NCBI RefSeq assembly: GCF_000716675.1
Contig: NZ_JNXT01000017.1
Coordinates: 62,001-126,000, forward strand
Direction of reading: 5' to 3'
DNA: 64,000 bases
From: Streptomyces alboflavus
Lineage (GTDB): Bacteria > Actinomycetota > Actinomycetes > Streptomycetales > Streptomycetaceae
Position 1 is the first letter of the stretch. Every line of letters begins with the position of its first letter. The translations under genes were made by a program, and so were the position numbers. Under the pieces are notes generated by a model. That model had not been told where the DNA came from. It saw only the letters and a list, made by a program, of their open reading frames with translations, and did no database searches. This document shows positions 9,162-31,325 of the stretch, piece by piece.

Positions 9162-9467
9162 TCAGCCCTCGCGCACACGGACGGGCACTCCTTGTTCGTC
9201 GCGCCTGTACTCACGCCGCGCGTTCTTCTCGATCTTCTGGGCGACCTCGTGACCGAGGTCGATGTCGTTCATCTCGGCCAAGGCCGCCAAGTACAAGAAC
9301 ACGTCGGCCAGTTCCTCGCCGAAGTCCGGCAGGCGCTTGCGCCATGCTGTGAACGCCTCGCCGACTTCGGCGTTCAGAAGACCGAACTCAAGTGGCACGT
9401 CAGTGGTGTTGAACCCCTTCGCGGTCTTGTTCTCCCAGGCGAGCTTCTGGGCGGTCCGGATTTCCAA
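9162..9467 (-). CDS. MazG-like nucleotide pyrophosphohydrolase
   Basis: All-alpha NTP pyrophosphohydrolase that converts (d)NTPs, often modified ones, to monophosphates. The metal-binding acidic pattern is present: LNAEVGEAF (ExxE) and GEELADVFLYLA (ExxD), with Lys/Arg-rich helices between. I start it at a TTG preceded at short range by GGAGG, giving 101 residues, the normal size for single-domain MazG-like proteins. A longer upstream reading would add a tail without family resemblance. It is the last gene of the leftward operon, where it could clear or generate nucleotide monophosphates for the pathway. Confidence 0.8.
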   Translation of the reverse strand: MEIRTAQKLAWENKTAKGFNTTDVPLEFGLLNAEVGEAFTAWRKRLPDFGEELADVFLYLAALAEMNDIDLGHEVAQKIEKNARREYRRDEQGVPVRVREG

Positions 9468-9547
9468 GGCTCCTCCGGGGCAGTACAGCAGTTGCTGCCG
9501 CAGCCTACCGAGGGCCAAGTGGCTCCCGCTGACGGATGCGCGGGGTC

Positions 9548-10048
9548 TCACCCCGTGGAAGGAAGATCGAGTCTCGTCGTGTCGATGGTTTCCACGGGGC
9601 AATACGACGCGAGCGTCTCGAAGGTCCGCTGGTAGATCGTCACGAGGTCCGAGATCTCGTCCAGGCCGGCGGCTGCCCCGTCACGCTGCAGCAGTCGCTG
9701 CTGTATCACGACCGGAGGTGCGATCAGGTGAAGGAAGACACCGTTCCGGCTGACGACAGTCTCAGCAAGATCAATCGCCTGGGTCCAGGTGAGCCGCGAA
9801 CGCCCGCGCAACAGTGGACCGTAGACGAGTTCACTCAGGAAACACCGGTCGAGGAGCAGCCGTCCGGGTTTGTCCAGGAGCTCGCGGTACCGGCTCACCA
9901 GGTCCAGATGATCCGGGGTACGGGGCGAGTGGGTGATGGTGAAGCCGTGTTGGCAGGCCAAGCGGGTCGCGAGCGTGCTCTTGCCGACGCCGTCGCATCC
10001 CTCCAGGACCAGGGTCTCGTGTTTCACCGCCACCGTCTCGACGTTCAT
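9548..10048 (-). CDS. P-loop nucleotide kinase, thymidylate-kinase-like
   Basis: A 166-residue P-loop kinase with Walker A GCDGVGKST at about residues 17-25. LLLDRCFLSELVYGP resembles the DR(Y/F) region of dTMP kinases, and a LID-like QQRLLQRDG segment follows. It would phosphorylate a nucleoside monophosphate or a modified nucleoside. It is shorter than housekeeping Tmk (about 210) and closer to phage or cluster-associated kinases. The ATG overlaps the stop of the deoxyribosyltransferase-like gene (ATGA). The substrate cannot be read from the sequence. Confidence 0.75.
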   Translation of the reverse strand: MNVETVAVKHETLVLEGCDGVGKSTLATRLACQHGFTITHSPRTPDHLDLVSRYRELLDKPGRLLLDRCFLSELVYGPLLRGRSRLTWTQAIDLAETVVSRNGVFLHLIAPPVVIQQRLLQRDGAAAGLDEISDLVTIYQRTFETLASYCPVETIDTTRLDLPSTG

Positions 10049-10989
10049 GACCGCAGCCACTCGTCGAGCGCCGCCGGATCGGACAGGTGGGCGGAGGAGG
10101 CGTACTGGATCATCAGGTTGCGCCAGTTCGGCTCGCGGCCGTGGGCGTGGGTGAAGGTGAGGCGGGGCTGGTACGCGGCGATCCGGGTGCCACACGCCGA
10201 CGCCGCCCCGATGAGCAGGGCCGCTCCCGGCGGTGTCTCCGGACCTGACACGTCGGCGATCAGCACGTCCGCAGTCAGCGCATCGTTCAGATCCTGGTGT
10301 GCCGCCACCACAGGGTCGGGTGCCTCGAACCGGCCGGGAGCACACAGCACATAGCCCGCAGCCGAAGCCAGTGCTGTCAACACGCCTTGCCAGGCGAGAT
10401 ACGGGGACGGCTCCACGAAGGCCACCTTCCCGGCTCCGTCGCGCGGTGACGCGGTGGCCGGTCTGCGAGCGGGGAGATCGAGCAGATTCTCGACTGCCGC
10501 CTCCAGAGCCCAGTCGAGCTGGCCCTCATTACGGTCGACGAATGCCTCCAAGCGCGTCTTGGCCGCGTCCGCAGACTGCTGGTCGGCCAGCCGGGCCACC
10601 CGGACCACGCTGGTGGCAGCTGCTTGCACGATTGGATCGGGAAACTCGAGCCGGGGCCCACCCGCCGACATCGAGTAGGTCTGGAAGTCGGTCGTCACGA
10701 CGACTACGGGGACGCCAAGGGCGCAGGCGTAGCCGATCTCCATGCACACGCCGTCGTCCAGACTCGGTCCGTGCAGGATGGCGATCATGGCGGTCAACTT
10801 CCCCAGCCGTTCACGGTCCAGCTCGAACAGGCGCTGCCCTTTCACATCGGCGATCAGGTCCTCCTCGTTGGTGTCGCAGAAGGGGAGGAAGACGTTCTCT
10901 GGTCCCGTCTTTTCGGCGACCCGTTGTGCGAGTCGGGCGGCGAGGGCACGGTCATGAGCGGCGAACAGTCGGTGGGCAACGTAGTACAC
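10045..10989 (-). CDS. Two-domain nucleoside 2-deoxyribosyltransferase-like protein (possible CMP-type N-glycosidase)
   Basis: The first domain (residues 1-160) has the family active-site stretch DDGVCMEIGYACALGVP, with the catalytic Glu at residue 84. The second (about 185-314) repeats the fold, but the matching segment PGAALLIGAASACG has no Glu, so it looks catalytically dead. The superfamily includes the CMP and hydroxymethyl-CMP hydrolases of nucleoside antibiotic pathways (BlsM/MilB type), which release the free pyrimidine base. A cytidylate-hydroxymethylase-like gene lies in the same locus, which makes that role attractive here but unproven. The usual family length is about 150-170, so 314 fits a tandem duplication. 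Confidence 0.75.
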   Translation of the reverse strand: MYYVAHRLFAAHDRALAARLAQRVAEKTGPENVFLPFCDTNEEDLIADVKGQRLFELDRERLGKLTAMIAILHGPSLDDGVCMEIGYACALGVPVVVVTTDFQTYSMSAGGPRLEFPDPIVQAAATSVVRVARLADQQSADAAKTRLEAFVDRNEGQLDWALEAAVENLLDLPARRPATASPRDGAGKVAFVEPSPYLAWQGVLTALASAAGYVLCAPGRFEAPDPVVAAHQDLNDALTADVLIADVSGPETPPGAALLIGAASACGTRIAAYQPRLTFTHAHGREPNWRNLMIQYASSAHLSDPAALDEWLRS

Positions 10990-11010
10990 AGGGAGGCTCC
11001 CATCGAGGGC

Positions 11011-11829
11011 TCAAGGTCGGCGCGGAGCCGGAAGGGGTAAGGGAGGGGCTGAGATGTGAGCAGCAGCGGCGGCCGCAGCTGCTGGAAGGGCAATCTCCGG
11101 AGTGGCGCCTTGTGCGCGATAGGCGAGGTAGGTGCCGGCCAGGGTGTCGCCGGCGCCGGTCACTTCGCCGTACACCGGGTCGGGCGGGTAAACCTCCGCG
11201 GCAGGCCGTCCCCAACGGTAGACGCGCACAGGGCGCGGGCCGTCGGTGACCACTACCTCAGCCAGGTCGGCGATGGCAGCGACTTGAGCGAGCAGTCGAT
11301 GCTCAGCGGCGTTGACGAACACGGTCGTGGCCTTCGTCAGCCAGGGAGCTGCTTCACGCATCATCTGCTCCGCGCTCGTCAAGAAGAAGTCGAGACTGAA
11401 CTGGGCCGAACAGGAGTCGAGGGCGTGCAGCAGCGCGGCCACGTCGAGAGGTCGACGACAGCAGAGGTGGTAGACGTGGCCTGGGTGGTTCGCGATGCGG
11501 TCGAGTGCATGGGACGTCCCAGCGCGCGGCGCTCCATACTGCGCATCCACGGCCAGAAGTTGACCGTGAGCGTCATAGTCCAGAGTGAATGCCGTCGACG
11601 AATCCTCGCTGACGTGCAGAGCGGACCAGTCGAGACCGTCTACGATCACCGCGCCAGGCAGATCCTGCAGGTCTCGTCCAACGACTGCGACGGGCGCCGC
11701 CGCGGTTCCCGCTCGGGCTGCCGCAAGCGACACCAACAGCGCGGCTCCGCCTAGCTGTTCGCCGCCTCGGTCGTCCGGGTACCGGGTGCGGTCGCGCGAG
11801 ATGTTGCCGATGACCGACAGGCTGTTCAT
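11011..11829 (-). CDS. PfkB-family sugar/nucleoside kinase
   Basis: Ribokinase-fold kinase of 272 residues. The C-terminal PfkB signature EVTGAGDTLAGTYLAYRAQG contains the anion hole and catalytic Asp. The N-terminus (SVIGNISRDR, then GGAALLVSLAAARAG) matches the first family motif in weak form. It would phosphorylate a sugar or nucleoside hydroxyl, consistent with recycling a ribose or activating a nucleoside. Gaps of 21 bases to both neighbours place it in the leftward operon. The substrate is unknown. Confidence 0.82.
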   Translation of the reverse strand: MNSLSVIGNISRDRTRYPDDRGGEQLGGAALLVSLAAARAGTAAAPVAVVGRDLQDLPGAVIVDGLDWSALHVSEDSSTAFTLDYDAHGQLLAVDAQYGAPRAGTSHALDRIANHPGHVYHLCCRRPLDVAALLHALDSCSAQFSLDFFLTSAEQMMREAAPWLTKATTVFVNAAEHRLLAQVAAIADLAEVVVTDGPRPVRVYRWGRPAAEVYPPDPVYGEVTGAGDTLAGTYLAYRAQGATPEIALPAAAAAAAAHISAPPLPLPAPRRP

Positions 11830-11850
11830 CGCCGATTCCCCCGGACCGGT

Positions 11851-12672
11851 TCAGCAGTGGACGTGGGCACAATCGACTACCCGCGTGCAGACCGGTCGAC
11901 GGGTGCACAGGCGGGGCGAAGGGCCGTTCAGATAGAGCCGCTTGAAGTAGATCAATACGAGGTGCACCCACCAGGTCGGTTCGACGCCAGCGGGGATGGA
12001 CACCCGGTAGTCGAGAGCGTCGACCAGCCGCCGGAAATCGACGGACCGGGCTCGAACCCCTTCTTCAAGCAGACATCGGAACCGCTCGTGTGCCGCGGCG
12101 CCCGAGCCCACAGAAGCCCCCAGGGCGGGTGCCAGCTTGGTGACCATGCCAGAGTCGACCGGGATGATTCCGCAGTGATAGCCGCGGGCGTACAGCACGG
12201 CGCACTGGGCGACCTTGTACGACGCTCCTCGGACCTCGCGTGCGAAGTCGTGGATCAGCAAATCGCAGTCAGTATCCGCGGCAAGCGGGTCGACGGAAGC
12301 CTTCTCCCAGCTCTGTAGCAGCTCCGTGAGGGACCGAAGGTACGAAATGCGGGTCTGGCCGAGCCCGAGCGGCTGAACAAGCTGGGCAAGCTCAGCGTCG
12401 GTGCTGGCGGTGAGCCGGTCGAATCCGAGGGCGTCGGCGTCGACCACGACTCGCGCATAGATGTCGATCATTCGGTAGGAGACGCGGGTCGACCAGCCCG
12501 CGACCGCCATCCGCAGGCGCGGATCGGTCACTGCGGTGGGCCACCACCGGTTCTCGTCATGGTTGGCCTCGACCTCGGCCTTGACGTCCGGAAGGCTCGC
12601 CGCGCGCTCGACGAGGTGATGGATGCGGGCGATGTCGCTCCGGCTCGGTTCCGTACGGAAAGACCGTTTCAT
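11851..12672 (-). CDS. Helix-hairpin-helix glycosylase-like protein (HhH-GPD fold)
   Basis: A 273-residue protein whose central part resembles endonuclease III-type glycosylases. LVQPLGLGQTRISYLRSL matches their interdomain helices. REVRGASYKVAQCAVLYARG is hairpin-like with Lys153, and GIIPVDSGMVTKL carries Asp173 where glycosylases have the catalytic Asp. Lys and Asp are 20 apart, against 18 in endonuclease III. No Fe-S cysteine cluster is visible. Because it lies in a nucleotide-modifying operon, it may act on a nucleotide or modified base rather than in repair. HhH relatives in phage base-hypermodification pathways (alpha-glutamyl/putrescinyl-thymine pyrophosphorylases) are one precedent. 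The start forms an ATGA overlap with the gene before it. Confidence 0.55.
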   Translation of the reverse strand: MKRSFRTEPSRSDIARIHHLVERAASLPDVKAEVEANHDENRWWPTAVTDPRLRMAVAGWSTRVSYRMIDIYARVVVDADALGFDRLTASTDAELAQLVQPLGLGQTRISYLRSLTELLQSWEKASVDPLAADTDCDLLIHDFAREVRGASYKVAQCAVLYARGYHCGIIPVDSGMVTKLAPALGASVGSGAAAHERFRCLLEEGVRARSVDFRRLVDALDYRVSIPAGVEPTWWVHLVLIYFKRLYLNGPSPRLCTRRPVCTRVVDCAHVHC

Positions 12673-13379
12673 GTGCTCACTCCGGCGGAGAGTCTGGCCG
12701 CGTGCAGGGCAATGGCAAGGTTGGACGAGACCACCGGTCTGCCCAGCTCTTCTTCCAGGGCCTGGACGCAGGACAGCGTGTGCCAACCGGTGCACGAGAG
12801 CACCACCGCGTCGGCGGCACGCAACGTGTCCGGTGGCAGTCGGTACAGCAGCGTACGGACATCGGCGGGCCGGACGTCGGCGAAACCGTCATCGAGCCCG
12901 AGGCTCGTGTGCGCCCGGACAGCGACGCCCCCGGCCCGCAACGCGTCGACCTCCGAGCGAGTGACGGCATCGGGGTACGGCGTGGCGAGCACCACCCGTG
13001 TGGCGTTGAACGAAGCCAGAGCCCCGAGCAGAGCATCGAAGGCGGTGATGGTCTCCCATGGAAGCGGCGGTCCTCCGGTAAACCCTGCGGAGGTACAGGC
13101 CAACACCACGGCGTCCAGGGGCACGTGCCTCAACGAGTCCATGGCGGTGGTGGACGCCTCGCGCAGGCCGTACCAGAACGACGCATCCACTGCGGTCGTC
13201 CGAGACGCGGGGACAAGACGCGCGTAATGGAACACGGTGTGCACCAGGCCCAGACGCGGGAGTTCCTCCTCGACGGCCACGTTCGCCCACGGCAGCAACA
13301 CCCCTACGCGAACGGTCCGCTCGGCCCGCGAGTCCAATTCGGCGAGCAGGCCGAGCGTGCTCTCATGCGGCGGGGGCAA
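12669..13379 (-). CDS. Asp/Glu racemase or maleate isomerase superfamily protein
   Basis: The 236-residue two-domain fold has paired catalytic cysteines: Cys95 in VVLACTSAGF and Cys196 in VVLSCTGWHT. This is the pattern of aspartate/glutamate/hydantoin racemases and maleate cis-trans isomerases, which use two Cys to move a proton alpha to a carboxylate. The GVLLPWANVAVEEELPRL start is typical of the maleate isomerase/arylmalonate decarboxylase branch. The first 16 bases lie inside the end of the radical SAM gene, so the two are coupled. It could set stereochemistry of an amino- or hydroxy-acid building block; the substrate is unknown. Confidence 0.75.
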   Translation of the reverse strand: MPPPHESTLGLLAELDSRAERTVRVGVLLPWANVAVEEELPRLGLVHTVFHYARLVPASRTTAVDASFWYGLREASTTAMDSLRHVPLDAVVLACTSAGFTGGPPLPWETITAFDALLGALASFNATRVVLATPYPDAVTRSEVDALRAGGVAVRAHTSLGLDDGFADVRPADVRTLLYRLPPDTLRAADAVVLSCTGWHTLSCVQALEEELGRPVVSSNLAIALHAARLSAGVST

Positions 13380-14889
13380 GGCGTTCCCCGTAGATGAGGC
13401 GAGGGGCGTGGCCGGTCACTCGGAGAGCCGCATCCGTGGCCACGGGGACAGCGGCTCCCCTCTCCACTATCTGGATCGAGTAGGAGCCCAGCCGTCGGAA
13501 CCAGGTACCGCGGTCACTCACGAAGTAGGAGTGCAGTCCGGGTACCTCCAGTCCATGTGGGTAGACGCGTTCCTTCATCGGTTGATCCCAGCCGTGGTCG
13601 ATGTCCGCCTTCCACGATGCGAAGTGCTCCACCGAAGGCAGCGGTCCGGGTAGCCCTTCTTCCGCGAGGGGCGTGCCCGGGAACGCGCGAACCTGCCTGA
13701 CGTTGGTGCGATGACAGAGCAGCCCCGCCTCCAGGATGTTCGTGAGGTGCGTCAGGTTCGCGATGTGGGTCGCATGGGTCTCGCCGGGCAATCCGTAGAT
13801 CAGATTCAGTCCTGGGAGCAGCTTGGGAAGACCGCCCGGCCCGCGCTCGGCACCGGCATCGTTGATGTGCTCCACCGCGCGCCGCAGGATCTCGGGCGTG
13901 CAGGTGAGGGTGTTCCGCTCGATGACGACCTGATCGAAGCTCTCGATTCCCATCGGTGCGCAGTTGCCCTCGGTGCAGAACTCTGCCACCAGCTTGGCGA
14001 TCCGAAGGCCGACGGGTGCCGCGACAGCGAGCGGGTCGGCATTGTCGATGTGCAGCACCTCAAGATCGGGGCAGCGGTCCCGAATGCCCGCGAGGAGCGT
14101 GTGGATCGCGTCCTCGCTGCGATGTTGATAGGAGAAGAAGCACGTCTGTTGGCCCAGACGGAAGTTACGGACGCCGGCGTCGTAGAGCTGACCGGCCTCT
14201 TCGATCACGTCGCTGACATCACGGAAGACTACGAGAGGCGACTTGCTCGGCTCGCTGCAGAAGTTGCAGAACCTGCGGCGGGTGCACCCGCGATACAACT
14301 CCAGCTCGGCGATGGGCCGCCAGAGCATCTGGGCCACCAGCCCGCCGAAGTCCCTGCGTTCCTTGCGGAGCATCCCGTACGCCGCCGGCGTACGGCTTCC
14401 TCCTGCAAGCCCATCAGCGGTGAGCGTGTGCGTGTGGACCGCATCGAACAGCCCCGCGTACTCGGCGGGAGATTCCAGTGCGTATGTCGACAGAGGACCG
14501 AGCAGGATGCGCTGTCCACGCACGCAGGCCATCGCGCGAGCGATCTCCTCAAGACTGCCGTTGACCGCGTGCAGGTGGACGCTCGGAACCTTGTCGCCAG
14601 CGATGACGACAACGCGGTCCGCCCGATGGAGAAGATCGACGGCCTGCGTCCGGTTCGTCGTCGCGGAGTAGGTCAGGGGGTCGCTGAGGGGTGGGTCCAC
14701 CGCGGGCTTCCCCCCGGCGAGGCACCAGCGCACGTCGTCGATGGTCAGGTATCGCACGTCCGCCTCGGGCTGTGCCGTGGTCAGAGCAGACCAGGCAGCG
14801 CGTACGTACGTGGACAGGTAGGGAGGAACACCTAGTCCGCTCGGTTCCACGGTGAAGGCGTCCAGGATCACAACGATGGGCTTAGGCAT
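13363..14889 (-). CDS. Radical SAM enzyme with unusual CX5CX2C cluster motif
   Basis: A 508-residue protein. Residues 1-180 look like an N-terminal Rossmann/cobalamin-binding-like domain (VVILDAFTVEPSG, PPYLSTYV). A radical SAM barrel follows. The iron-sulfur cysteines are C202, C208 and C211 in YRGCTRRRFCNFC, i.e. CX5CX2C rather than CX3CX2C. LNLIYGLPGET and RAFPGTPLAEEG are typical later-barrel segments of the B12/UPF0313-like radical SAM group. It would cleave SAM to start radical chemistry on an unknown substrate. It is the first gene of the leftward operon, divergent from the Xre/TPR regulator. Confidence 0.8.
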   Translation of the reverse strand: MPKPIVVILDAFTVEPSGLGVPPYLSTYVRAAWSALTTAQPEADVRYLTIDDVRWCLAGGKPAVDPPLSDPLTYSATTNRTQAVDLLHRADRVVVIAGDKVPSVHLHAVNGSLEEIARAMACVRGQRILLGPLSTYALESPAEYAGLFDAVHTHTLTADGLAGGSRTPAAYGMLRKERRDFGGLVAQMLWRPIAELELYRGCTRRRFCNFCSEPSKSPLVVFRDVSDVIEEAGQLYDAGVRNFRLGQQTCFFSYQHRSEDAIHTLLAGIRDRCPDLEVLHIDNADPLAVAAPVGLRIAKLVAEFCTEGNCAPMGIESFDQVVIERNTLTCTPEILRRAVEHINDAGAERGPGGLPKLLPGLNLIYGLPGETHATHIANLTHLTNILEAGLLCHRTNVRQVRAFPGTPLAEEGLPGPLPSVEHFASWKADIDHGWDQPMKERVYPHGLEVPGLHSYFVSDRGTWFRRLGSYSIQIVERGAAVPVATDAALRVTGHAPRLIYGERLAPAA

Positions 14890-15104
14890 GAGTCCCCTTC
14901 TGGTCGCCGCCGAACTCTCCGGCGGCTCAGTGCGGAGATGGCAAGGGGCATGGGCTCGCCGCCTCCGGCGCGTCCCCAGTCTCGGCAGAAGAGGTCCGCG
15001 ATAGCAGGGGGCGTCGGGGTTGTCCGGTTGCACGGAGGTTGTACTCGCACGGCAGGCTGTCCGAAGGCCGGGACAGAGAGTGACCGCTTGGGCATCATCG
15101 ACGT
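14890..15104. promoter_or_regulatory. Divergent promoter region of the biosynthetic locus
   Basis: A 215-bp gap separates the starts of the leftward radical SAM operon and the rightward regulator. It must hold both promoters. I could not pick out convincing -35/-10 pairs or a clear operator. Confidence 0.45.
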
Positions 15105-16487
15105 ATGAGCGGTGAGACAGCGTCGAGCGAGCCCAACAAGACCCTCTTCGTCGTGCTGAAGGAAGCGGGTTGTTCGCACGCCGCGCTGGCTCGGCGAGTC
15201 GTCGAACTGGGCCGTCGCCAAGGTGTGGTGATGCGCTACGACAAAGCGTCGGTCACCCGATGGCTCCAGGGAATGCAACCCAGGGGACGAGCAACGGAGT
15301 TCATCGCTGCCGCACTCTCCGAAATGCTCAATCGACCAGTGGCACCAGCGGACTTAGGCTTCTCAGCTGCCCCTCTGAAGCCGGTGATTACGCGAGCCCT
15401 GTCTTACTCTGAAGACGTGGGTGAAACGCTGCACACGCTCGCCGAACTCGGTTCTACCGCCATCTCCCGACGCAGCCTGCTCGGCACCGTGCCCTTTGTG
15501 GCATCTGCGTTGCTGGAGCCACAGAGGCAGTGGCTGCTCTGGCTCCTGGAAGAGGAACAGCAGCCGACCCTGGCTGTCGTCGAGGGTGGCGGTCAGGTCG
15601 AGCAAGTCCAAGCCATGATCAAGATGTTCGACCAGATGGACAACACCTACGGTGGCGGCGGAGTCCACTCCAGCATCGTGAACTACCTGACCGTCGAAGT
15701 CGTGCCGATGCTCCAGCAGCGCGGCATCCCTCATCACCAGCGGAAGCAGCTCTTCACCGCCGGCGCGAAGCTGGCTGCAATGGCGGGTTGGTGTTCATAC
15801 GACTCGGCGGAGTACGGCCTGGCCCTGTGCAACATGAACATGGCCCTTAGTCTGTGCAAAGAAGGCGGTGACCGGGTGCTCGGCGGGCAGATCCTCGCGG
15901 GCCTGTCGCACCTCTTCACCAACCTCGGTTATCCGCGCGACGGTGTCGCACTCGCCCGAATCGGCATTGCCACCGCCAAGTCGGCCGGCAGCCCGATGGG
16001 GCTGATGCGCCTCCATGCCATGGCCGCACGCGGGCACGCGGCCCTCGGCGACGGGCGAGCCGCGACGGCTTCGCTGCACGCAGCGGCCCAGTCTCTGGAC
16101 TCTAGTCGGGGCGCCTTGCAGGAGTCGGAGTGGGTTCGGTACCTGGACCCTCACTATCTAGAGGCCGAAGCGGCCCTGTGCCACAGGGACTTGGGCGAGT
16201 CAACGAAAGCAGAACGACTGGCTGAAGCGTCTGTCACTGCGAACGCCGAACGTCGCCGTCGGCAGGCAATCAGCCGGTCGGTGCTGGCCACCGCTCATCT
16301 GCAGCAGGGCCGCCTCGACCAGGCCATCAGCACGGCCACCCACGCCTTGAACGGATTGAGTGGCGTCCACTCCGAGCGCTCCGTCCAGGCCCTGCGGGAA
16401 TTCAGATCGAGGCTCGAGCCACGGCGAAATGAGCCGATGGTCCGCGAATTCGAGCGGAAGGCGAAACCCATCCTCGGCGCTGCCTGA
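15105..16487 (+). CDS. Xre-like helix-turn-helix regulator with TPR-like domain
   Basis: A 460-residue Streptomyces-type regulator. The N-terminal DNA-binding part (about 12-85) reads FVVLKEAGCSHAALARRVVE followed by KASVTRWLQGMQP, a helix-turn-helix. The long alpha-helical remainder (about 180-450) has tetratricopeptide-like alternation (ALCNMNMALSLCKEGGD, AERLAEASVTANAERRR, AISTATHALNGL). Such proteins often sit in natural-product clusters and respond to a small molecule or peptide. It reads away from the leftward operon across a shared promoter region and converges on the SDR gene with only five bases between stops. It is a good candidate for cluster control. Confidence 0.85.
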   Translation: MSGETASSEPNKTLFVVLKEAGCSHAALARRVVELGRRQGVVMRYDKASVTRWLQGMQPRGRATEFIAAALSEMLNRPVAPADLGFSAAPLKPVITRALSYSEDVGETLHTLAELGSTAISRRSLLGTVPFVASALLEPQRQWLLWLLEEEQQPTLAVVEGGGQVEQVQAMIKMFDQMDNTYGGGGVHSSIVNYLTVEVVPMLQQRGIPHHQRKQLFTAGAKLAAMAGWCSYDSAEYGLALCNMNMALSLCKEGGDRVLGGQILAGLSHLFTNLGYPRDGVALARIGIATAKSAGSPMGLMRLHAMAARGHAALGDGRAATASLHAAAQSLDSSRGALQESEWVRYLDPHYLEAEAALCHRDLGESTKAERLAEASVTANAERRRRQAISRSVLATAHLQQGRLDQAISTATHALNGLSGVHSERSVQALREFRSRLEPRRNEPMVREFERKAKPILGAA

Positions 16488-16492
16488 CGGGC

Positions 16493-17308: not shown

Positions 17309-17565
17309 TACGCCCTCCATCCCCGTACAACCTATGCGCACGAGCGTGGCGGAATGCATCCCCAATGCCGACTTCATGGTTCCTAGAGTGCGCGGTTCGC
17401 TTTACCCCGTACCTCATGCGTGACATGGCGGGAGCCGCTCAGGCCGTCGCGATCAGCGCCAGCAGCCGTACCGGACGCCCACTCGGCTTCATACGGCGAC
17501 GAGGTGCCCCAGGCGAGGGTGAACCTCACTTGCCGTTGGCCCCCTCCACGAAAGGACCACGCGCC

Positions 17566-17658
17566 ATGGCCAGCTCCACAGCACCCGCACCGCCGGCCTC
17601 CACCGCTTCGGCCGCCGTTGTCCGCCGAGTCCTTAACGGACTCTGGCGGACGCTATGA
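17566..17658 (+). CDS. Possible 30-residue small protein or leader
   Basis: A short frame begins at an ATG with an AAAGGA site 11 bases upstream. It encodes an Ala/Thr/Ser-rich N-terminus and the tail VVRRVLNGLWRTL, and its stop lies ten bases before the GTG of the ATPase-fold gene. It could be a translational leader or a real micro-protein. I know no family for it, and chance is not excluded. Confidence 0.3.
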   Translation: MASSTAPAPPASTASAAVVRRVLNGLWRTL

Positions 17659-17668
17659 GGAGCCGCCC

Positions 17669-18157: not shown

Positions 18158-18205
18158 CGCTTGCTCGTCCCTTGCTCCGATCCGCCCGACCTGGAGGTGT
18201 TCGCC

Positions 18206-24528: not shown

Positions 24529-24624
24529 TGCAGCTGGTCCTCCGGGGCTCCACGCCTGGATCATCCGTACGTGTTCTGTCGGCCGTGCCGTCCGGACACC
24601 CGAGCACCCCTAGGGTGGAGCACC

Positions 24625-25137
24625 ATGAAGAAGGTCGCCATCGTCGGCTGCGGAGGCAGCGGCAAGTCGTACCTGGCCCGCGAGCTGGGAAAGGTGCTGG
24701 ACGCCCCGGTCACGCATCTGGACGCCGCGTTCTACGACGACGAGTGGAACGAGCTGCCGATGGACAAGTTCGCCGAGGTACAGCGCGAGCTGGTCGCGCA
24801 GCCGAAGTGGGTGATCGACGGCAACTACAACTCAACGCTGCAGATTCGGCTCGAAGCCTGCGACACCATCGTCCTCATGGACGTCTCGACGCCAGCCGCT
24901 CTGTACGGGATCTTCTCCCGCCAGATCCGCCACGGAGCCGGGCACAAGGGCAACGGCGTGCACAACCGCATCCACTGGGGCGTGATCAAGTACGTCGCGA
25001 CGTACCGCCGCAAGATGCGCCCCCGCGTCATGGCCAAGATCGAGCAGTTCGCCGCGGGGCACGCCGATGTGGTGTTGCTGACCGGGCGACGTCAGACCCG
25101 GCGCTGGTTGCAGCGGGTGGCCACCGAGCAGCGCTGA
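24625..25137 (+). CDS. Small P-loop kinase (adenylate-kinase/topology-modulation-like)
   Basis: A 170-residue P-loop protein. Walker A is GCGGSGKSYLAREL, THLDAAFYDDEWNELP is the substrate region, WVIDGNYNSTL a Walker-B-like core segment, and RHGAGHKGNGVHNRI a basic LID-like stretch. It belongs to the group annotated as adenylate-kinase-like or DNA topology modulation proteins, many of which phosphorylate small molecules. A GGAG ribosome site precedes the ATG. It probably phosphorylates a pathway intermediate. Confidence 0.78.
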   Translation: MKKVAIVGCGGSGKSYLARELGKVLDAPVTHLDAAFYDDEWNELPMDKFAEVQRELVAQPKWVIDGNYNSTLQIRLEACDTIVLMDVSTPAALYGIFSRQIRHGAGHKGNGVHNRIHWGVIKYVATYRRKMRPRVMAKIEQFAAGHADVVLLTGRRQTRRWLQRVATEQR

Positions 25138-25168
25138 CGAGCCGGCGCGCCCGAGAAGGGTGCGCGGC

Positions 25169-26014
25169 ATGAGCGTCAATCCCTTCCTCGACCCGGCGCG
25201 CCGGGAGGAGCTGTACGGGCACGCGTCTCGGCTGGTCGGCCGATCCAGCGCGTTGATGCGCGCGAAGGTCGCCGGGGATCCGGTACCGGACACGGTTGTC
25301 CGGTTGGTCCGGGCCCACCACGGGGAGCGGGCGGGGCGCCTCGGCCTCGTGGTCGACATCGGCTGTGGGCGGGGGACGAGCAGCCGAGTTCTCGCCGAGC
25401 AGCTCTGCCCTTCCCGGCTCGTCGGCCTTGATGCCGCACCTGCCCTGATCACGGAAGCCCGGAAACGTGTTGGTCGAATCCGCGGCGTGCAGATGTGCTT
25501 CCTGCAGGGCGACTTCCACCGGATGCCGATACCGGACTCGTCCTGCGGCCTGGCCGTGGCGGCCTTCTGTCTCTACCACTCGCCTCGGCCAGCGGACGCC
25601 ATCGCGGAGATCGCCCGTGTCCTTCGCCCCGACGGCTTGGCCGTTCTGGTCACCAAGGCGCTGGACAGCTACCGCGAGATGGACGCCCTTGCGGCAGCCG
25701 CCGGACTCGACCCGCGGGCGGAACGTCACGAAAGCCTGTACGTCGCCGCGCACAGCGGCAATCTCGTTGACCTGGCGAAGCCGAACCTCGACGTACTCGC
25801 GGCCGAGCACGAGGAGCACCGCTTCACCTTCGACGGGCACGATCACGCGGCCGAGTACCTCGCCACCAATCCGAAATACGACCTCGCCCCCGGCCTGTAC
25901 GGCAACCCGGGTGCGCTGGCGGCCTCGCTCCATGAGTTCGTCCCGGACCGCCCGATCACCACCGGTTCCGTCATCACGTACGTGGTGGCTCGGCCGCGAG
26001 GAGCCCGGTCGTGA
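25169..26014 (+). CDS. Class I SAM-dependent methyltransferase
   Basis: About 281 residues with the SAM-binding motif VVDIGCGRGTSS, the acidic ribose contact LVGLDAAP, motif II/III in GDFHRMPIPDSSCGLAVA, and VLRPDGLAVLV. It resembles the UbiE/Methyltransf_11 group, so transfer to O, N or C is possible. I use the ATG preceded by AAGGG; a GTG nine bases upstream is in frame. Its stop overlaps the next GTG. Confidence 0.88.
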   Translation: MSVNPFLDPARREELYGHASRLVGRSSALMRAKVAGDPVPDTVVRLVRAHHGERAGRLGLVVDIGCGRGTSSRVLAEQLCPSRLVGLDAAPALITEARKRVGRIRGVQMCFLQGDFHRMPIPDSSCGLAVAAFCLYHSPRPADAIAEIARVLRPDGLAVLVTKALDSYREMDALAAAAGLDPRAERHESLYVAAHSGNLVDLAKPNLDVLAAEHEEHRFTFDGHDHAAEYLATNPKYDLAPGLYGNPGALAASLHEFVPDRPITTGSVITYVVARPRGARS

Positions 26015-26775
26015 CCGTCACCCATTTCACGAAGCACTACAACGACCCTGGTCAGGTCGCCGCAGCGGCCCGGAACTACGCCTGGATCGCTACCCACGCC
26101 CAACCACTGCGGCAGCCGGCACTGACGGTGGTGGGTCCGACGAGCCTGACCTTCGAGCGAATCCAGGGGCGCCCCGCTCAGCAGGGTGACCTGTCACGAC
26201 TGGCTCGGTTGCTGGGCGACGCTCACGGCGTCGCGTGGGCGAGTGACCTGCGACCTGCTGCCCTGAACATGCCGCACACCTTTCGGGACGGGACGATCTT
26301 CGGCGACTACGTCGGCACGCGCGAGGTGGCCCTGCACAAGAGGCTGGAGCAGGGCTACTTGCCGGACAAGATCGCCCTCCACGCGATGCTGGCCCTCCTG
26401 GAGAAGACAGCGGAGGGACCCACCGCCTTCTACAAGGACAGCAATCCCCGGAACTACGTGATCACCGAGGACGGCACCGTCTTCGTCGTCGACACCGACG
26501 ACCTCACGCTCGCCCCGTTCGCGTACGACCTAGCCAAGCTGATCGCGACACTGATCATGACGTACGGCCCGCTCCCCGCAGGCGCCGCCGACGAGGCCCT
26601 AGCCGCCTACAACGAGGCTGCCTCACGCCACGATGCCCGGCTCGGCACCACTGACCGCGAGCGCCTCAATGACTTCCTCGCCCTGCACTCCGTCCTCACT
26701 GCCCCGTACGCCGGGCGCAACGGCTACCGCTATGGCTGGCCGTTTCAGCGCCCCCGACTCCAAGGTCCGGCATGA
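26011..26775 (+). CDS. APH-fold small-molecule kinase (first of two)
   Basis: A 254-residue aminoglycoside-phosphotransferase-fold protein. The catalytic loop is FYKDSNPRNYVI: the Asp and the Asn five residues later are kept, while the usual His-Gly before the Asp is replaced. VFVVDTDDLTLAPFAYDLAKL supplies the DFG-like Asp. Such kinases phosphorylate hydroxyls of antibiotics or sugars, so it may be biosynthetic or self-protective. It overlaps both neighbours by four bases. Confidence 0.75.
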   Translation: MTVTHFTKHYNDPGQVAAAARNYAWIATHAQPLRQPALTVVGPTSLTFERIQGRPAQQGDLSRLARLLGDAHGVAWASDLRPAALNMPHTFRDGTIFGDYVGTREVALHKRLEQGYLPDKIALHAMLALLEKTAEGPTAFYKDSNPRNYVITEDGTVFVVDTDDLTLAPFAYDLAKLIATLIMTYGPLPAGAADEALAAYNEAASRHDARLGTTDRERLNDFLALHSVLTAPYAGRNGYRYGWPFQRPRLQGPA

Positions 26776-27428
26776 TCACCACCGAACTCGTCTTCCTCCG
26801 CCACGGCGAGGCCCAGTGCAACGTCGCCGGCGTGGTCGGCGGCCCGCGTACCTGCACCGGGCTCACGAACCTCGGATACGACCAGGTCGAACGGGCTGCG
26901 ACACGGCTGGCTGCCGAGCATCAAGAGTTCCCGTTCACCGCGCTCTACGCCGGCCCTCGGATTCGGTTACGACAGACCGCAGAGATCCTCAGCCAGACGC
27001 TGAAGATTCCGCTGCGCACCGAGGCCGGGCTCGACGGCCCAGTGCACGGCGCGGCAGACGGCAAGCCCTGGACCGAGATCAAGGACCTGGCCAATGGCGG
27101 GCCACATGCCCATCCCGACACACCCTGGGCGGAGGGGTCAGACACCTGGAACGGCTACCTGCAGCGCGCGGGCGACCTCCTCCGAGCTCTCATCGCACGC
27201 CATGAGGGGGATCGCGTGCTCTTCGCCGCACACGGCGAGACCGTGATCGTCGCGCACACCCTGCTTCTCCAGATCCCACTGGGCTCGCCGGCGGGCTTCA
27301 CCATTTCCCACGGGTCGATCACGCGCTGGCAGCACCACTTCAACCGGCTCGGCCAGAGGCGCTGGATGCTCGACCGCCACAACGACACCGAACACTTGGC
27401 GGCCTTAACAACAGAGGCCGCATCATGA
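26772..27428 (+). CDS. Histidine-phosphatase (phosphoglycerate-mutase-like) superfamily protein
   Basis: A 218-residue branch-1 histidine phosphatase. The phospho-accepting His is in VFLRHGEAQCN, the second catalytic His in LFAAHGETVIV, and YAGPRIRLRQTAEIL carries the conserved Arg. It probably removes phosphate from a small molecule. It sits between two APH-fold kinases in a run of ATGA overlaps, suggesting that phosphate is added and removed during assembly or export. Confidence 0.88.
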   Translation: MITTELVFLRHGEAQCNVAGVVGGPRTCTGLTNLGYDQVERAATRLAAEHQEFPFTALYAGPRIRLRQTAEILSQTLKIPLRTEAGLDGPVHGAADGKPWTEIKDLANGGPHAHPDTPWAEGSDTWNGYLQRAGDLLRALIARHEGDRVLFAAHGETVIVAHTLLLQIPLGSPAGFTISHGSITRWQHHFNRLGQRRWMLDRHNDTEHLAALTTEAAS

Positions 27429-28261
27429 TCACGGACCTCTCAGACCCGCGCGTGGAACTTGCCCGGCAGACAGTCGGAGCGGTGAGCATCGTGGCCGAAC
27501 CCACACTCCCGCCCCGCCTGCTGTGTCTCGCCGACGCCCACGGACGCAAGTACTTCGCCAAGCAACACGAGAACCGCGAGAGGTATGTCCGGGAAACCAT
27601 CGCCTATCTGACGTGGGGGCGACACCTCGAAGGGCACGCTCCGGAACTGATCGGCCGACAGGACTCCACACGCACCCTGCTGGTCACCGCCATGAGCGGA
27701 TCGAGCGTCGAGACCTTCGCGCCCGGGTCGCCCGAGGAGGAGCAAGCACACCACGACGCCGGCGTCGTACTGGGCAGACTTCACCGTGCCACGACCGTCG
27801 CCCACACCGGGGCCATCGGAGCCGACCTCGCGCAGCGCCTCCTCGGCTGGATCGACCGAGCCGACAGGGTCGAACTTCTCTCGGCGACGGAACGCGGCAG
27901 CCTGCGGGAAGCCGCAGACGCCCTAGCCGGCACCCTCATGGACAGCGCGATCTGCCACCTCGACTACCAACCCAGAAACTGGATCCTCGGAGAGCGCTTC
28001 GGTATCTACGACTTCGAGCACATGCGTCGAGATGCCCGCATACGCGACTTCGCCCGCCTCGAGTTTCGCCGCTGGCAAGCAGCGCCCCACCTGCGCGACG
28101 CCTTCCTCTCCGGATACGGCTCTCCTCTGACCGGCACCGACCAACGGCTGCTGGAGAGGTTCGGCGCCATCGAAGCAGTCACCGCGCTCGTCCGCGGTCA
28201 CGAACAAGACAACCCCGCCCTCAGCGCCCACGGCCGCACCGTCCTCGCCCGCCTGAGCTGA
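27425..28261 (+). CDS. APH-fold small-molecule kinase (second)
   Basis: A 278-residue kinase with CHLDYQPRNWIL as the catalytic loop (Asp, with Asn five residues on) and GIYDFEHMRRD as the DFG-equivalent. An N-lobe Lys lies in KYFAKQHENRERYVRETIAY. It differs clearly from the other APH-fold protein two genes upstream, so it is not a recent duplicate. Likely substrates are the nucleoside, sugar or finished product. Confidence 0.82.
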   Translation: MITDLSDPRVELARQTVGAVSIVAEPTLPPRLLCLADAHGRKYFAKQHENRERYVRETIAYLTWGRHLEGHAPELIGRQDSTRTLLVTAMSGSSVETFAPGSPEEEQAHHDAGVVLGRLHRATTVAHTGAIGADLAQRLLGWIDRADRVELLSATERGSLREAADALAGTLMDSAICHLDYQPRNWILGERFGIYDFEHMRRDARIRDFARLEFRRWQAAPHLRDAFLSGYGSPLTGTDQRLLERFGAIEAVTALVRGHEQDNPALSAHGRTVLARLS

Positions 28262-28287
28262 CCAACCACGCCCCTGGAGACAGCCCC

Positions 28288-29286
28288 GTGTCAGAACACA
28301 CCCCCGCTCCGCACCCCCCGGTTCTCCGCCGCGCGGTGGTCACCGGGGCCGCCGGATTCATCGGCTCCCATCTCGCCCACGCTCTGCTTGGGTCCGGCAC
28401 CATCGTCATCGGTGTCGACCGCCGGGACCCCGCCACTGACCAGGTCGCTGCGGCCAACCTCGCTGCTCTGCAAGGCGTTCCGGGATACATGCACATCACC
28501 GCGGACCTGCTCAACTGCTCGGTCGACCCGCTGCTGTTCGAAGCGGACGTCATCTTCCATCTGGCCGCCGTGCCTGGAGTTCGCCCCTCCTGGGGCCCCC
28601 GGTTCAATGAGTACGTCGCCTCGAACATCCTCGCCGCGCAGCGTGTGATGGAAGCCGCCCATCGCATGCGCGTCCCTCGACTGGTGGTCGCCTCCTCCTC
28701 CAGCGTCTACGGCCCGACCAGCGGTGGCGCCAGCGTTGAGGCCGATCACCTGCGCCCCGCATCGCCCTACGCCGTCACCAAGCTCGCCGAGGAACAGCTG
28801 TGCCTCGCGCACGCCGCCCGCGCCAACTGCCCGACAGAGGTGGTCGCCCTGCGGTACTTCACGGTTTACGGCCCCCGACAGCGCGCCGACATGTTCATCC
28901 ATCGTGCCCTCCACGCGGCCCTCACCGGGCAACCGCTCTCCTTGTACGGCGACGGCCACCAGCGCCGGGATTTCACCTACATCGACGACGCCGTCACCGC
29001 CACCATCGCCGCAGCCACCGTCCCCAACGCCACGGGCGCCTTCAACGTCGGCGGTGGCTCCAGCGCCTCCTTGCTCGAAGTCATCAACATCGCCAAGAGC
29101 CTTGTCGGCCGCGACATCCAGATTCACCTGGAGCCCGCGCGCGGCGGAGACGTCCTGACGACCCTAGCCAACCCCGCTCGCGCCCACGAAGTTCTCGGCT
29201 GGCAGCCCCAGGTTGACCTGCACAACGGGCTGCGCGCTCATATGCAGGCCCTGGCCCAAGCCGCTGGGTACGGCGCCGCAGCCTGA
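28288..29286 (+). CDS. NAD-dependent nucleotide-sugar epimerase/dehydratase
   Basis: Extended SDR of 332 residues. The cofactor loop is VVTGAAGFIGSH, the catalytic Ser is in VASSSSVYGP, Tyr and Lys are in SPYAVTKLAEEQ, and substrate-side segments include LRYFTVYGPRQRADM and RRDFTYIDDAV. It belongs with UDP-glucose 4-epimerase and UDP-glucuronate 4-epimerase-like proteins. It would supply an NDP-sugar for the glycosyltransferases of the operon. The GTG start follows a GGAGA site after a 26-base gap. Confidence 0.9.
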   Translation: MSEHTPAPHPPVLRRAVVTGAAGFIGSHLAHALLGSGTIVIGVDRRDPATDQVAAANLAALQGVPGYMHITADLLNCSVDPLLFEADVIFHLAAVPGVRPSWGPRFNEYVASNILAAQRVMEAAHRMRVPRLVVASSSSVYGPTSGGASVEADHLRPASPYAVTKLAEEQLCLAHAARANCPTEVVALRYFTVYGPRQRADMFIHRALHAALTGQPLSLYGDGHQRRDFTYIDDAVTATIAAATVPNATGAFNVGGGSSASLLEVINIAKSLVGRDIQIHLEPARGGDVLTTLANPARAHEVLGWQPQVDLHNGLRAHMQALAQAAGYGAAA

Positions 29287-29312
29287 TCACCCCGCGACCA
29301 GCAGGAGTTGCA

Positions 29313-30434
29313 GTGGAGAGCCCCGAGAAAGTACGGCTGGATGCGTTCTTCCGCCGGATCACCGCGCAGTTCCCTGCCGACGGCCAGGTCACAGCCCTGA
29401 TCATCACGCACCTACTCCAAGAGCGCCCGGCGTTCCTCCAGGCCATGTCCCGGACTGTCGCGATCGGAGCCGTCCTCCCCAAGCCCCGCTCCATCGACCA
29501 GCCGACGCTCGATGAAGTCCAGCACAGCTATGCCGTCCACGGCCTCAGCCGAGAGCTGTTCGCTGACGAGACCCGGGCTCTGGAGTTCCTGGAGGACACC
29601 GCTGCGGGAACGGACGTGGTCCTTCTCGACATCGGCGGCTACTTCGCGCCGAGCCTCCGCACGCTGGTCGACAAGTTCTCGGGCCGAGTCCTGGGAGTCG
29701 TCGAGGACACCGAGAACGGCCACCAGCGATACGCCGCACTCGGTGACCTGCCTTGCCCCGTGATCTCCGTGGCACGCTCGCCGCTGAAGGACTGCGAGGA
29801 CCACCTCGTCGGTCGATCCATCGTCTTCTCCACTGACGCCCTGGTGCGCACCCGCGGCGACATCCTCACCAGTCGCGCTGCCTGCGTCATCGGATTCGGC
29901 AAGGTCGGCCGCGCCATCGCCCAGACCCTCCGCGCCCACGACCTGCGCGTCACGGTGTACGACAGCGATCCGATCAAGCGCGTACAGGCCCGCGCCCAAG
30001 GATTCTCAACAGCGGGCTCCTGCACGGAAGCACTTCGCGGCGCCGACCTGGTCCTGTGCGCCACCGGCAACCTGGCACTGCGCCAACACCACTTCTCCGC
30101 GCTTCGCAACGGCGCCTACGTGGCATCCGTGACCTCGTCGGAGGACGAACTCGAGCTGAGCTACCTGGATGACCTCTACCAACGTACGAAGGTCGCCGAG
30201 CAGCTGACCCGATACGAAGTCACCGGCCACTACTTCTACGTGCTCGCCGACGGCGGCGCGGTCAACTTCGTCCACGGCGCGGCCGTCGGCTCGTATATCC
30301 ACCTCGTCCAGGCCGAAATACTCGCTGCCACCGCCGCGCTGAGCCGGAGCGGCCCTGTCCCCGGGCTCCAAGAAATGTCCCCGATCCACCGCCAGACCAT
30401 CGCCGAGATCTGGCTCGACCACTTCGACAGGTGA
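29313..30434 (+). CDS. Adenosylhomocysteinase-like NAD-dependent enzyme
   Basis: A 373-residue protein sharing the S-adenosylhomocysteine hydrolase core. The NAD loop is CVIGFGKVGRAIAQ (194-200 region), LGVVEDTENG holds the conserved Glu at about 131, and SPLKDCEDH holds the catalytic Lys159 and Asp163, with His where the hydrolase has Asn. The N-terminal adenosine-binding segment (HMTxQT, STQD) is not recognisable, and the protein is shorter than the usual 430-490. It may use the same 3'-oxidation and elimination chemistry on another nucleoside. The GTG start follows AGGAG. It is not expected to be the cell's housekeeping hydrolase. Confidence 0.8.
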   Translation: MESPEKVRLDAFFRRITAQFPADGQVTALIITHLLQERPAFLQAMSRTVAIGAVLPKPRSIDQPTLDEVQHSYAVHGLSRELFADETRALEFLEDTAAGTDVVLLDIGGYFAPSLRTLVDKFSGRVLGVVEDTENGHQRYAALGDLPCPVISVARSPLKDCEDHLVGRSIVFSTDALVRTRGDILTSRAACVIGFGKVGRAIAQTLRAHDLRVTVYDSDPIKRVQARAQGFSTAGSCTEALRGADLVLCATGNLALRQHHFSALRNGAYVASVTSSEDELELSYLDDLYQRTKVAEQLTRYEVTGHYFYVLADGGAVNFVHGAAVGSYIHLVQAEILAATAALSRSGPVPGLQEMSPIHRQTIAEIWLDHFDR

Positions 30435-30536
30435 GGGCGGAAATTCGAGGCGGTCGCCCCCACCAACCGTCCGGGCCGAACTGGCTCTCCTCCCGCGCAC
30501 CACACGCCCCTGACCGCCCCTCGACGGGAGAATTCC

Positions 30537-31325
30537 GTGGCCGCCACCACGATCATTCCGCGCTCAACACCACGTCGTCACATAGCAGTTATCCCCTGCC
30601 GCTGGGGAGCATCACGATTCCCCGGCAAGCCACTCGCCGTCTTGGGCGACAAGCCTCTGATGTGGCACGTCTATCAACGCTGTACACAAGCGAAGCGCCT
30701 CGATGAGGCTCTGGTCGCCACGGACGACGAGCGCATCGAGGCCGCCTGTCGCGAACTCGGCATTCCCTGTCTGATGACCGCCGAACACCCCACGGGAACC
30801 GACCGGGTCGCAGAGTGCGCGCAGCGGATCAAGGCCGACGCGTACATCAACGTCCAGGGCGACGAACCGTTCATCAGCGCAGCCGCGATCGACGCCGTGT
30901 CCGAGGCGTTGCTGCGCCTGGAGCCCGAGATGGTGGCCGTCAATGCATATGCAGAGCTGGACGAAGTCGGGTCCGTGCTCGACCACAACGTCGTCAAGGT
31001 CGTCGTAGGCAGCAGCAGGGAGGCGCTGATGTTCTCCCGGCAGCCAATTCCGTATCCGAAAGGCTGTCGGCCAACCTACCTGCGCCAGCTGGGCCTTTAC
31101 GGCTTCACGGGCGATGGGCTCCGTTTGTTCCGGCGCCTCCCTCAAGGTCCTCTGGAACAGGCCGAGGGCATCGAGATGCTTCGGCTCATCGAGCACGGAT
31201 ACGGCGTGCGGATGCTCCGCGTGAGCGACACGGAGTGCGCGGTGGACACGCCAGAGGATCTTGAAAGAGCTCGCGCGAGACTGCGGGAGGTTTCCGGAGG
31301 TCCTGGCAGCGCCGCGTCGTACTGA
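30537..31325 (+). CDS. KdsB-like CMP-sugar-acid cytidylyltransferase
   Basis: A 262-residue homologue of 3-deoxy-manno-octulosonate cytidylyltransferase. VIPCRWGASRFPGKPLA carries the CTP-binding Arg and Lys. ALVATDDERI, INVQGDEPFI (Mg-binding Asp), ALMFSRQPIPYPKG and LGLYGFTGDGLRLF are all family landmarks. The enzyme couples CMP to the anomeric hydroxyl of a keto-sugar acid. KDO itself is a Gram-negative envelope sugar, so here it more likely makes or uses another CMP-linked acid, or joins a cytidylate to a pathway intermediate. It is the last gene of the rightward operon. Confidence 0.88.
   Translation: MAATTIIPRSTPRRHIAVIPCRWGASRFPGKPLAVLGDKPLMWHVYQRCTQAKRLDEALVATDDERIEAACRELGIPCLMTAEHPTGTDRVAECAQRIKADAYINVQGDEPFISAAAIDAVSEALLRLEPEMVAVNAYAELDEVGSVLDHNVVKVVVGSSREALMFSRQPIPYPKGCRPTYLRQLGLYGFTGDGLRLFRRLPQGPLEQAEGIEMLRLIEHGYGVRMLRVSDTECAVDTPEDLERARARLREVSGGPGSAASY

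Follow-up and report, generated by a model that had tools for sequence, protein, structure and literature searches.

The stretch from 9162 to 31325 of the window (the whole 64,000-nucleotide stretch of Streptomyces alboflavus DNA that was analysed) is made up of two conserved, mostly separate Streptomyces gene sets that are adjacent by happenstance. The left module (9162-17377) and the right module (17420-31325) lie side by side, and with a little better than even confidence we read them as independent modules abutting at ~17.4 kb, the right one a cryptic nucleoside biosynthetic operon and the left one a separate nucleotide-modification operon, with the products proposed below. The gene families, their conserved order, the mostly separate occurrence of the modules and the active-site residues are established. 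The correct splitting of the locus decides which genes belong in joint expression.

HMM scans gave identities to 23 genes, in agreement with an earlier note on this DNA that had counted more than twenty genes with repeated four-base overlaps. ATGA, GTGA or CTGA overlaps occur at 7/13 junctions of the right module and at 2/6 of the left, and additional gene overlaps span 16 and 17 bases. The starts of the HhH (12672), TS (20781), Carb (21734) and dNMP kinase (10048) genes were corrected. The ORF at 24528-25172 was rejected as a gene since it lies in the wrong frame, and the true gene is the P-loop kinase at 24625-25137. The left module comprises the following genes, the first seven forming an operon:

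9162-9467, minus strand: MazG-like pyrophosphohydrolase (PF03819 1.8e-4, 22.2 bits against a cut-off of 22; phrog_3301 3.5e-14 on a longer ORF)
9548-10048, minus strand: dNMP/thymidylate-kinase-like P-loop protein (phrog_761 3.1e-17 on a longer ORF)
10045-10989, minus strand: nucleoside 2-deoxyribosyltransferase-like protein, NDT (PF05014 6.3e-19; 7m5h 1.3e-7)
11011-11829, minus strand: PfkB-family kinase (PF00294 2.1e-16)
11851-12672, minus strand: HhH-GPD-fold N-glycosylase-like protein
12669-13379, minus strand: AMDase / Asp-Glu racemase-fold protein (PF17645 4.4e-14)
13363-14889, minus strand: radical SAM enzyme with a CX5CX2C cluster motif (Pfam PF04055 4.8e-8)
15105-16487, plus strand: NsdA-family TPR regulator, divergent from the radical SAM gene (NF053720 8.6e-109)
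16493-17377, minus strand: short-chain dehydrogenase, SDR (PF13561 2.8e-43)

The right module comprises:

17420-18157, plus strand: HATPase, RsbW/RsbA-like, optional, start perhaps 17669 or 17732 (PF13581 1.5e-6; 16/34 loci, window included)
18161-18925, plus strand: HAD phosphatase (PF13419 1.5e-23; 34/34 loci)
18922-20784, plus strand: GT-B-fold protein, glycosyltransferase or 2-epimerase
20781-21737, plus strand: CMP/dCMP 5-hydroxymethylase-like protein of the thymidylate synthase family, TS (best PDB match MilA, 2.3e-37)
21734-23464, plus strand: O-carbamoyltransferase, Carb (PF16861 1.8e-62, PF02543 6.5e-42, GdmN 1.4e-84, all on a longer ORF)
23449-24528, plus strand: glycosyltransferase (PF13524 5.7e-7)
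24625-25137, plus strand: P-loop kinase (GCGGSGKS motif; weak AAA_18 match; 79-91% identical in 30/33 loci)
25160-26014, plus strand: SAM methyltransferase (PF08241 2.9e-20)
26011-26775, plus strand: APH-fold kinase 1 (PF01636 6.3e-8)
26772-27428, plus strand: histidine phosphatase (PF00300 9.8e-26)
27425-28261, plus strand: APH-fold kinase 2 (PF01636 2.1e-13)
28258-29286, plus strand: NAD-dependent sugar epimerase/dehydratase, CTG start, 28291 possible (PF01370 3e-51)
29313-30434, plus strand: adenosylhomocysteinase-like NAD enzyme (PF00670 1.5e-18; PDB 6gbn 1.2e-21; 25/34 loci)
30537-31325, plus strand: KdsB-like CMP-sugar-acid cytidylyltransferase (NF009905 257.5 bits against a cut-off of 255; KdsB structure 1gq9 9.9e-52)

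The earlier note had described two coupled operons, and their distribution speaks against this. First, 0/33 right-module loci hold even one of the seven left genes within the fetched flanks. Second, a strong match to the left radical SAM enzyme occurs in 1/32 genomes bearing the right module, like its background of 3/101 genomes (own genome included); weak matches (E 3e-4 to 9e-4, ~60 residues) were dropped before counting, seven from the 101-genome set and three from the right-bearing genomes. Third, the kinase marker of the right module is found in 0/4 genomes selected by left genes alone (G019, G083, G214, G137). Co-occurrence elsewhere, which had been set beforehand as the test of the coupling, is therefore absent from 31/32 right-bearing and 4/4 left-selected genomes, but two strains apparently carry both modules on one contig. 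The HhH and Carb matches of Streptomyces sp. NPDC059037 share a longest-contig value of 41768, and the HhH, Carb and radical SAM matches of Sphaerisporangium sp. B11E5 share a value of 128275. Since these strains came from 120 listed of 485, 559 and 7330 matches, more such strains are possible. A single compound locus, in which both operons would act on the same nucleoside, the left for base release and self-protection and the right for decoration, draws on these two strains, one of another genus, on S. zagrosensis (G112), where both modules are present on different contigs, on the adjoining position in the window and on chemistry that is all nucleotide-related; against the counts above, we consider it unlikely. 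What stands of the proposed grouping is that the hydroxymethylase, TobZ/GdmN-type carbamoyltransferase, GT-like and KdsB-type genes form one conserved operon, the right module, but not their joining to the radical SAM/racemase/HhH/PfkB/NDT operon.

The regulator between the operons is a TPR regulator of the NsdA family. It neighbours the left module at 69-71% identity in G019, G112 and G214 (3/7 left loci), as does the SDR at 66-68% in the same three, whereas NsdA-like matches in right loci reach 26-30% identity only (18/33) and the single SDR match there 29%. Since both genes travel with the left module in these loci, they are not a shared centre.

Around full-length matches, 7/7 of the actinobacterial loci retrieved show the seven left genes in the same order, one of these loci in another family, so that the operon is found whole in two families. 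Cys202, Cys208 and Cys211 of the radical SAM enzyme are invariant across 120 aligned proteins, one of them from the window itself. The NDT-like protein had been taken for a BlsM/MilB-like glycosidase within the same pathway as the hydroxymethylase; its gene sits in the left module, and its 11 solved-structure matches comprise ten named 2'-deoxyribosyltransferases and one nameless entry, MilB being absent from those listed. The HhH protein has an HhH-GPD fold, and its catalytic-type motifs carry a Lys and an Asp, which we take to be catalytic. The 4Fe-4S motif of Endonuclease III is C-X6-C-X2-C-X5-C. The HhH protein shares the fold and the Lys/Asp pair with Endonuclease III and MagIII, but the EndoIII-type motif was not found in it and its C-terminal motif is C-X5-C-X5-C-X-H; it also differs from these enzymes and from DUF2419 in being encoded in a metabolic operon, which places a DNA-glycosylase fold inside nucleotide metabolism. 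DUF2419 (QNG1) has the HhH-GPD fold in common with it, and mononucleotide binding is possible for this fold, judging from the title of 7ulc. An assignment as a clear aGPT-pyrophosphorylase was rejected, the matches being weak only (clade 1, E 0.47; 5-hmdU DNA kinase, E 0.56), though the protein may yet be one.

The left module is patchy (2/61, 3/147 and 1/296 genomes, own genome included) and is found on plasmids as well as on chromosome-sized contigs. Plasmid matches H6 and H7 are radical SAM fragments (18% and 10% covered) and H3 is near-identical to H2; the neighbourhoods of H3, H6 and H7 were left out. Patchiness and plasmid carriage, together with the joint presence of nucleotide kinase, MazG and glycosylase folds, would suit an anti-phage or plasmid-borne system producing a toxic deoxynucleotide, with MazG and HhH for self-protection. 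We regard this as improbable: patchiness would be expected of a biosynthetic operon as well, and a PADLOC scan of 10/23 proteins (the left seven, TS, Carb and the P-loop kinase) gave for the left seven short P-loop matches only, in the dNMP kinase (best 1.1e-7). The same scan gave two weak AbiEi matches for Carb. A scan of viral_contigs found no close viral relative of HhH. HhH and radical SAM relatives are named in several more actinobacterial genera among the matches listed, and a haloarchaeal radical SAM relative (30%) stands without other left genes by annotation.

In 33/33 related loci, whichever right-module genes are present lie in the same order and on the same strand. TS is present in 34/34 loci and Carb in 33/34, window included, counting matches of at least 40% identity, partial ones included; the count for the NUDIX gene found in right loci of other genomes includes the source locus L019. 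Carb directly follows TS in 32/33 loci and in the window, where they overlap by 4 bases. The TS protein is nearest to MilA among PDB structures, the next kind reaching 1e-21. According to the excerpt of PMC5175136, Asp186 of MilA is the cytosine determinant and Ala176 the ribose determinant. The TS Asn177/MilA Asp186 position is Asp in 34/34 orthologs; the residues conserved in 34/34 are Asp180, Gly170, Cys149, Thr150, Glu67, His210 and Tyr212. Based on these residues, a cytosine-nucleotide hydroxymethylase is predicted and supported. The positions of MilA Lys133 and Ala176 are Arg and Gly in 34/34; Gly at this Ser167 position points to ribonucleotides, with room for the ribose, while the Arg occurs as in dCMP/dUMP enzymes, so the substrate may also be dCMP. 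Mildiomycin and bacimethrin biosynthesis (MilA, MilB, BcmA) shares the TS-family enzyme with the cytosine-specifying Asp but differs at these two positions, and an NDT/MilB-type hmCMP N-glycosidase was not found among the right-module proteins scanned. To our knowledge, the mildiomycin and bacimethrin clusters lack carbamoyltransferase, KdsB and AHCY-like genes. Elsewhere, PMC5003785 assigns PolB to the ThyX family, and 5-hydroxymethylcytidine comes up in PMC4139839 solely within a reference.

The nucleotide-kinase-like gene and the GT-B proteins of the right module presumably resemble the T4 set. The gene pair has a viral precedent: as given in the excerpt of PMC8670742, a MetaGPA phage TS adjoins an O-carbamoyltransferase, the two make 5-carbamoyloxymethylcytosine, 5hmCTP was also assayed, and Asp stands at TS position 177 in most TS of modified contigs. 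The pair here differs from the phage pair of this excerpt in lying in a bacterial operon of ~14 metabolic genes, in the Gly at the ribose-sensing position, and in a Carb that, among solved structures, comes nearest to GdmN and the novobiocin enzyme and may therefore act on a sugar. The phage relatives of Carb are distant (141 records, 30 listed at 25.6-32.7% identity), as are those of TS (2938 records, best identity among the matches listed 38.4%), and no close viral relative of Carb was found in viral_contigs, a scan that reaches close relatives only. The gene pairing, the T4-like set and the distant phage relatives speak for a right module that modifies nucleic acid, forming 5hmC in DNA or RNA and then carbamoylating or glycosylating it as in T-even/MetaGPA phages. 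The Gly at the Ser167 position, the negative result for close viral relatives of Carb and a set of HAD, histidine phosphatase, NUDIX, methyltransferase, KdsB and AHCY-like genes that fits small-molecule chemistry make this, in our judgement, quite unlikely.

Another reading is that the right module builds a surface glycan from a CMP-activated sugar acid (Kdo/Kdn-like), with the cytosine enzymes serving the donor. In its favour are the KdsB-like enzyme, the epimerase and a below-cut-off match of the GT-B protein to the surface-polysaccharide profile TIGR04396. We do not take the GT-B protein for a Kdo transferase, since 2-epimerases are its best fold matches (model residues 1-180 barely covered). 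A KdsA/NeuB-type synthase was not found among the cluster proteins scanned, TS and Carb are near-universal in the loci, and a reduced variant in G014 (Epi2-TS-Carb-GT-kinase-APH1-epimerase) does without KdsB; we therefore give the glycan little credence. The AHCY-like protein (373 aa) shares the NAD domain with adenosylhomocysteinase, with a conserved RSPLKxCEDH aligned to the AHCY Lys/Asp region, whose residue roles we assume to correspond, but it stays far under the equivalog cut-offs (92 bits against 497.6 for TIGR00936).

From these families we infer all reactions, their order and both products. The right module would make a nucleoside or nucleotide in which 5-hydroxymethylcytidine is both carbamoylated and glycosylated. 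The TS-family enzyme would place a hydroxymethyl on C5 of CMP (dCMP being less likely), and Carb would probably cap its hydroxyl like the phage enzyme, or carbamoylate a sugar. The epimerase may supply an NDP-sugar whose sugar the two GT-like proteins would attach, while phosphates would be added and removed by the three kinases (P-loop and APH) and the two phosphatases (HAD and histidine). Because a divergent relative lacks them, the methyltransferase, AdoHcyase-like, NUDIX (other genomes) and KdsB-like (CMP-linked keto-sugar acid) enzymes would serve later or optional steps. If this reading is true, 5hmC-carbamoylation chemistry known from phages is placed in bacterial small-molecule biosynthesis. 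The seven-gene left operon would make or remodel a modified nucleotide, the radical SAM and AMDase-fold enzymes acting on the base or a precursor, NDT and PfkB exchanging base and sugar and phosphorylating, the dNMP kinase and MazG setting the phosphate level and HhH cleaving an N-glycosidic bond. A bolder version, which we think has only a slim chance, has left radical SAM chemistry yield an unnatural (deoxy)nucleotide as weapon or DNA mark, HhH and MazG protecting the owner, and the right module the first free 5-carbamoyloxymethylcytidine natural product. The earlier note knew no pathway for the gene set, and the literature searched bears it out: neither a described pathway nor a description of either module was among the matches listed, a known cluster under other words being possible.

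No downstream gene family was common to the 16 genomes examined (4 ABC and 4 MFS by eye, unclustered ORFs not annotated), which is odd for an exported antibiotic. Plasmid KdsB matches were rejected as further right operons, L052 holding KdsB and three weak matches and L053 a different neighbourhood by annotation. Beside the kinase marker, the right operon occurs in 5/76 Streptomyces genomes from the genus, one being the reduced variant. The kinase matches of G010, G066 and G054 were not counted as right clusters: G010 has a kinase and a HATPase match only, within the 20 kb seen, G066 the kinase only, within 1.5 kb on each side, and G054 has a kinase match at 49% alongside partial GT and MT matches at 41-43%.

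The gene calls in the window, which comes from a 9.7 Mb assembly, were settled using codon-position GC, HMM scans and homologs. The following features are considered here:

Window 3985-8714: a set of transposon genes (Mu-transposase-C / TniB / TniQ-like) next to the left module, its start overlapped by a Mutator-family transposase ORF.
Window 9162-17377: the left module, with genes for radical SAM, AMDase-fold, HhH, PfkB kinase, NDT-like, dNMP-kinase-like and MazG-like proteins (the left seven), an NsdA-family regulator and an SDR.
Window 17420-31325: the right module, with genes for HATPase, HAD phosphatase, GT-B, CMP/dCMP 5-hydroxymethylase-like thymidylate synthase-family (TS), O-carbamoyltransferase, GT, P-loop kinase, methyltransferase, APH1, HisP phosphatase, APH2, epimerase, AHCY-like and KdsB-like proteins.

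In this transposon set, the match to TniQ was below the cut-off. The G+C content was 66.8% (1-9161), 66.3% (9162-17377), 67.9% (17420-31325) and 70.2% (32000-64000), so that the regional values of 66.3-67.9% up to 31325 indicate a lower G+C in the left half of the window. Separately, a single ORF at 53823-55604 matches both metallophosphatase and radical SAM domains.

All the actinobacterial loci retrieved from around a full-length match, seven in number (L038, L039, L058, L060, L061, L064 and L065; L037 is the same plasmid place as L061 and was counted once), have the left seven genes in identical order. Since the SDR and the NsdA regulator (69-71% identical) adjoin them in three of these loci, the module boundary was set at 9162-17377. 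On the haloarchaeal Natronorubrum bangense plasmid, a radical SAM relative with 30% identity adjoins a TRAM-domain gene, and the other six genes are absent by annotation. In overlapping genome samples that include the source genome, the radical SAM protein matched strongly in 3 of 101 genomes, and the HhH protein was found in 2/61, 3/147 and, at E up to 1e-40, 1/296.

The right module was examined by scanning genome contigs with the TS gene, which gave 33 loci in 32 genomes, titled Streptomyces (32) and Actinacidiphila (1). Order and strand of the genes found were kept in all 33. Counting the window as a 34th locus, HAD, GT-B and TS were present in 34, the carbamoyltransferase and GT in 33, the kinase, methyltransferase, APH1, HisP and APH2 in 31, the epimerase in 30, KdsB in 28, AHCY-like in 25 and HATPase in 16. 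A NUDIX gene, absent from the window, lies between AHCY-like and KdsB in 22 of the 33 other loci; L025 and L030 are without it, and L008, L027, L029 and L031 keep KdsB without either AHCY-like or NUDIX. The operon stops early in L003, L005, L024, L028 and L032, although the retrieved DNA runs on for another 3 to 10 kb, and L014 is without KdsB with 888 bases remaining.

The earlier note regarded both groups as one locus of two coupled operons, and a check of co-occurrence spoke against it. None of the left seven genes was found in the 33 right loci at E up to 1e-5; an NsdA-like match (26-30% identity) occurred in 18 and an SDR match (29%) in one. A strong match to the left radical SAM gene was present in only one of the 32 right-bearing genomes, that of S. 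zagrosensis, where it lay on a different contig from the right operon (C31 versus C36), and the right kinase was absent at E up to 1e-30 from four carriers chosen by left genes alone. Against separate modules, equal lengths of the longest contig suggest that at least two strains, Streptomyces sp. NPDC059037 and Sphaerisporangium sp. B11E5, carry both on one contig among the 120 matches listed per query, and further such strains may exist. We call them separate modules that are occasionally linked.

Among solved structures, the TS protein is nearest to the CMP hydroxymethylase MilA. All 34 orthologs have the cytosine-selecting Asp, Gly at the TS Ser / MilA Ala position and Arg at the MilA Lys position; roles of such specificity residues, including selection of cytosine by Asp, are described in PMC5175136. 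Based on this pattern and the closeness to MilA, we predict 5-hydroxymethylation of CMP, possibly also of dCMP. The carbamoyltransferase gene directly follows, its nearest solved structures being GdmN and the novobiocin enzyme, and the 5-hydroxymethyl group may be its acceptor. Phages hold distant relatives of both proteins, and a search for a close viral relative of the carbamoyltransferase found none. The GT-B protein is similar both to UDP-GlcNAc 2-epimerases and to glycosyltransferases.

In the left module, the CX5CX2C motif of the radical SAM protein is invariant in an alignment of 120 proteins. The fold of the HhH protein is like those of MagIII and endonuclease III, but its C-terminal Cys/His motif differs; the likeness to DUF2419/QNG1 is weaker, and Foldseek alone gave no match at E up to 0.001. 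The catalytic-type Lys is present in 31 of 32 proteins and the catalytic-type Asp in all 32. We suggest that the module makes or remodels a modified nucleotide, with the HhH enzyme cutting its glycosidic bond; it may instead be a DNA repair, antibiotic or defence system. Among the papers listed by literature searches, no description of either operon came up. We rate the right operon as a new variant among nucleoside clusters; the left, judged from sequence, could be something more unusual.

The right kinase was present in 8 of 76 sampled Streptomyces genomes. Right genes adjoin it in five; in two (G010 and G066) a kinase of 81-85% identity has no right neighbours in the DNA seen, save a 42% HATPase match in G010, and in one the neighbours are partial, distant GT and methyltransferase matches only. 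Among the five, G014 has a divergent operon retaining only GT-B, TS, carbamoyltransferase, GT, kinase, APH1 and epimerase, which may be the core, the remaining genes being decoration. Beside this operon (L092) lie Cas proteins of a CRISPR type I-E-like kind, resembling Cas1, Cas5 and Cas7 by eye.

Upstream of the right operon, XRE/TPR-type regulators of several families, named by eye, recur and differ by locus. Downstream of KdsB, no gene family was common to all (16 genomes fetched, 18 searched); ABC and MFS transporters, also named by eye, each occur in 4 of the 16. Loci L075, L080 and L081 have a common downstream block whose proteins include, judged by eye, relaxase-like and replication-like ones; this suggests an integrative element, and L082 has the relaxase-like protein of this block.
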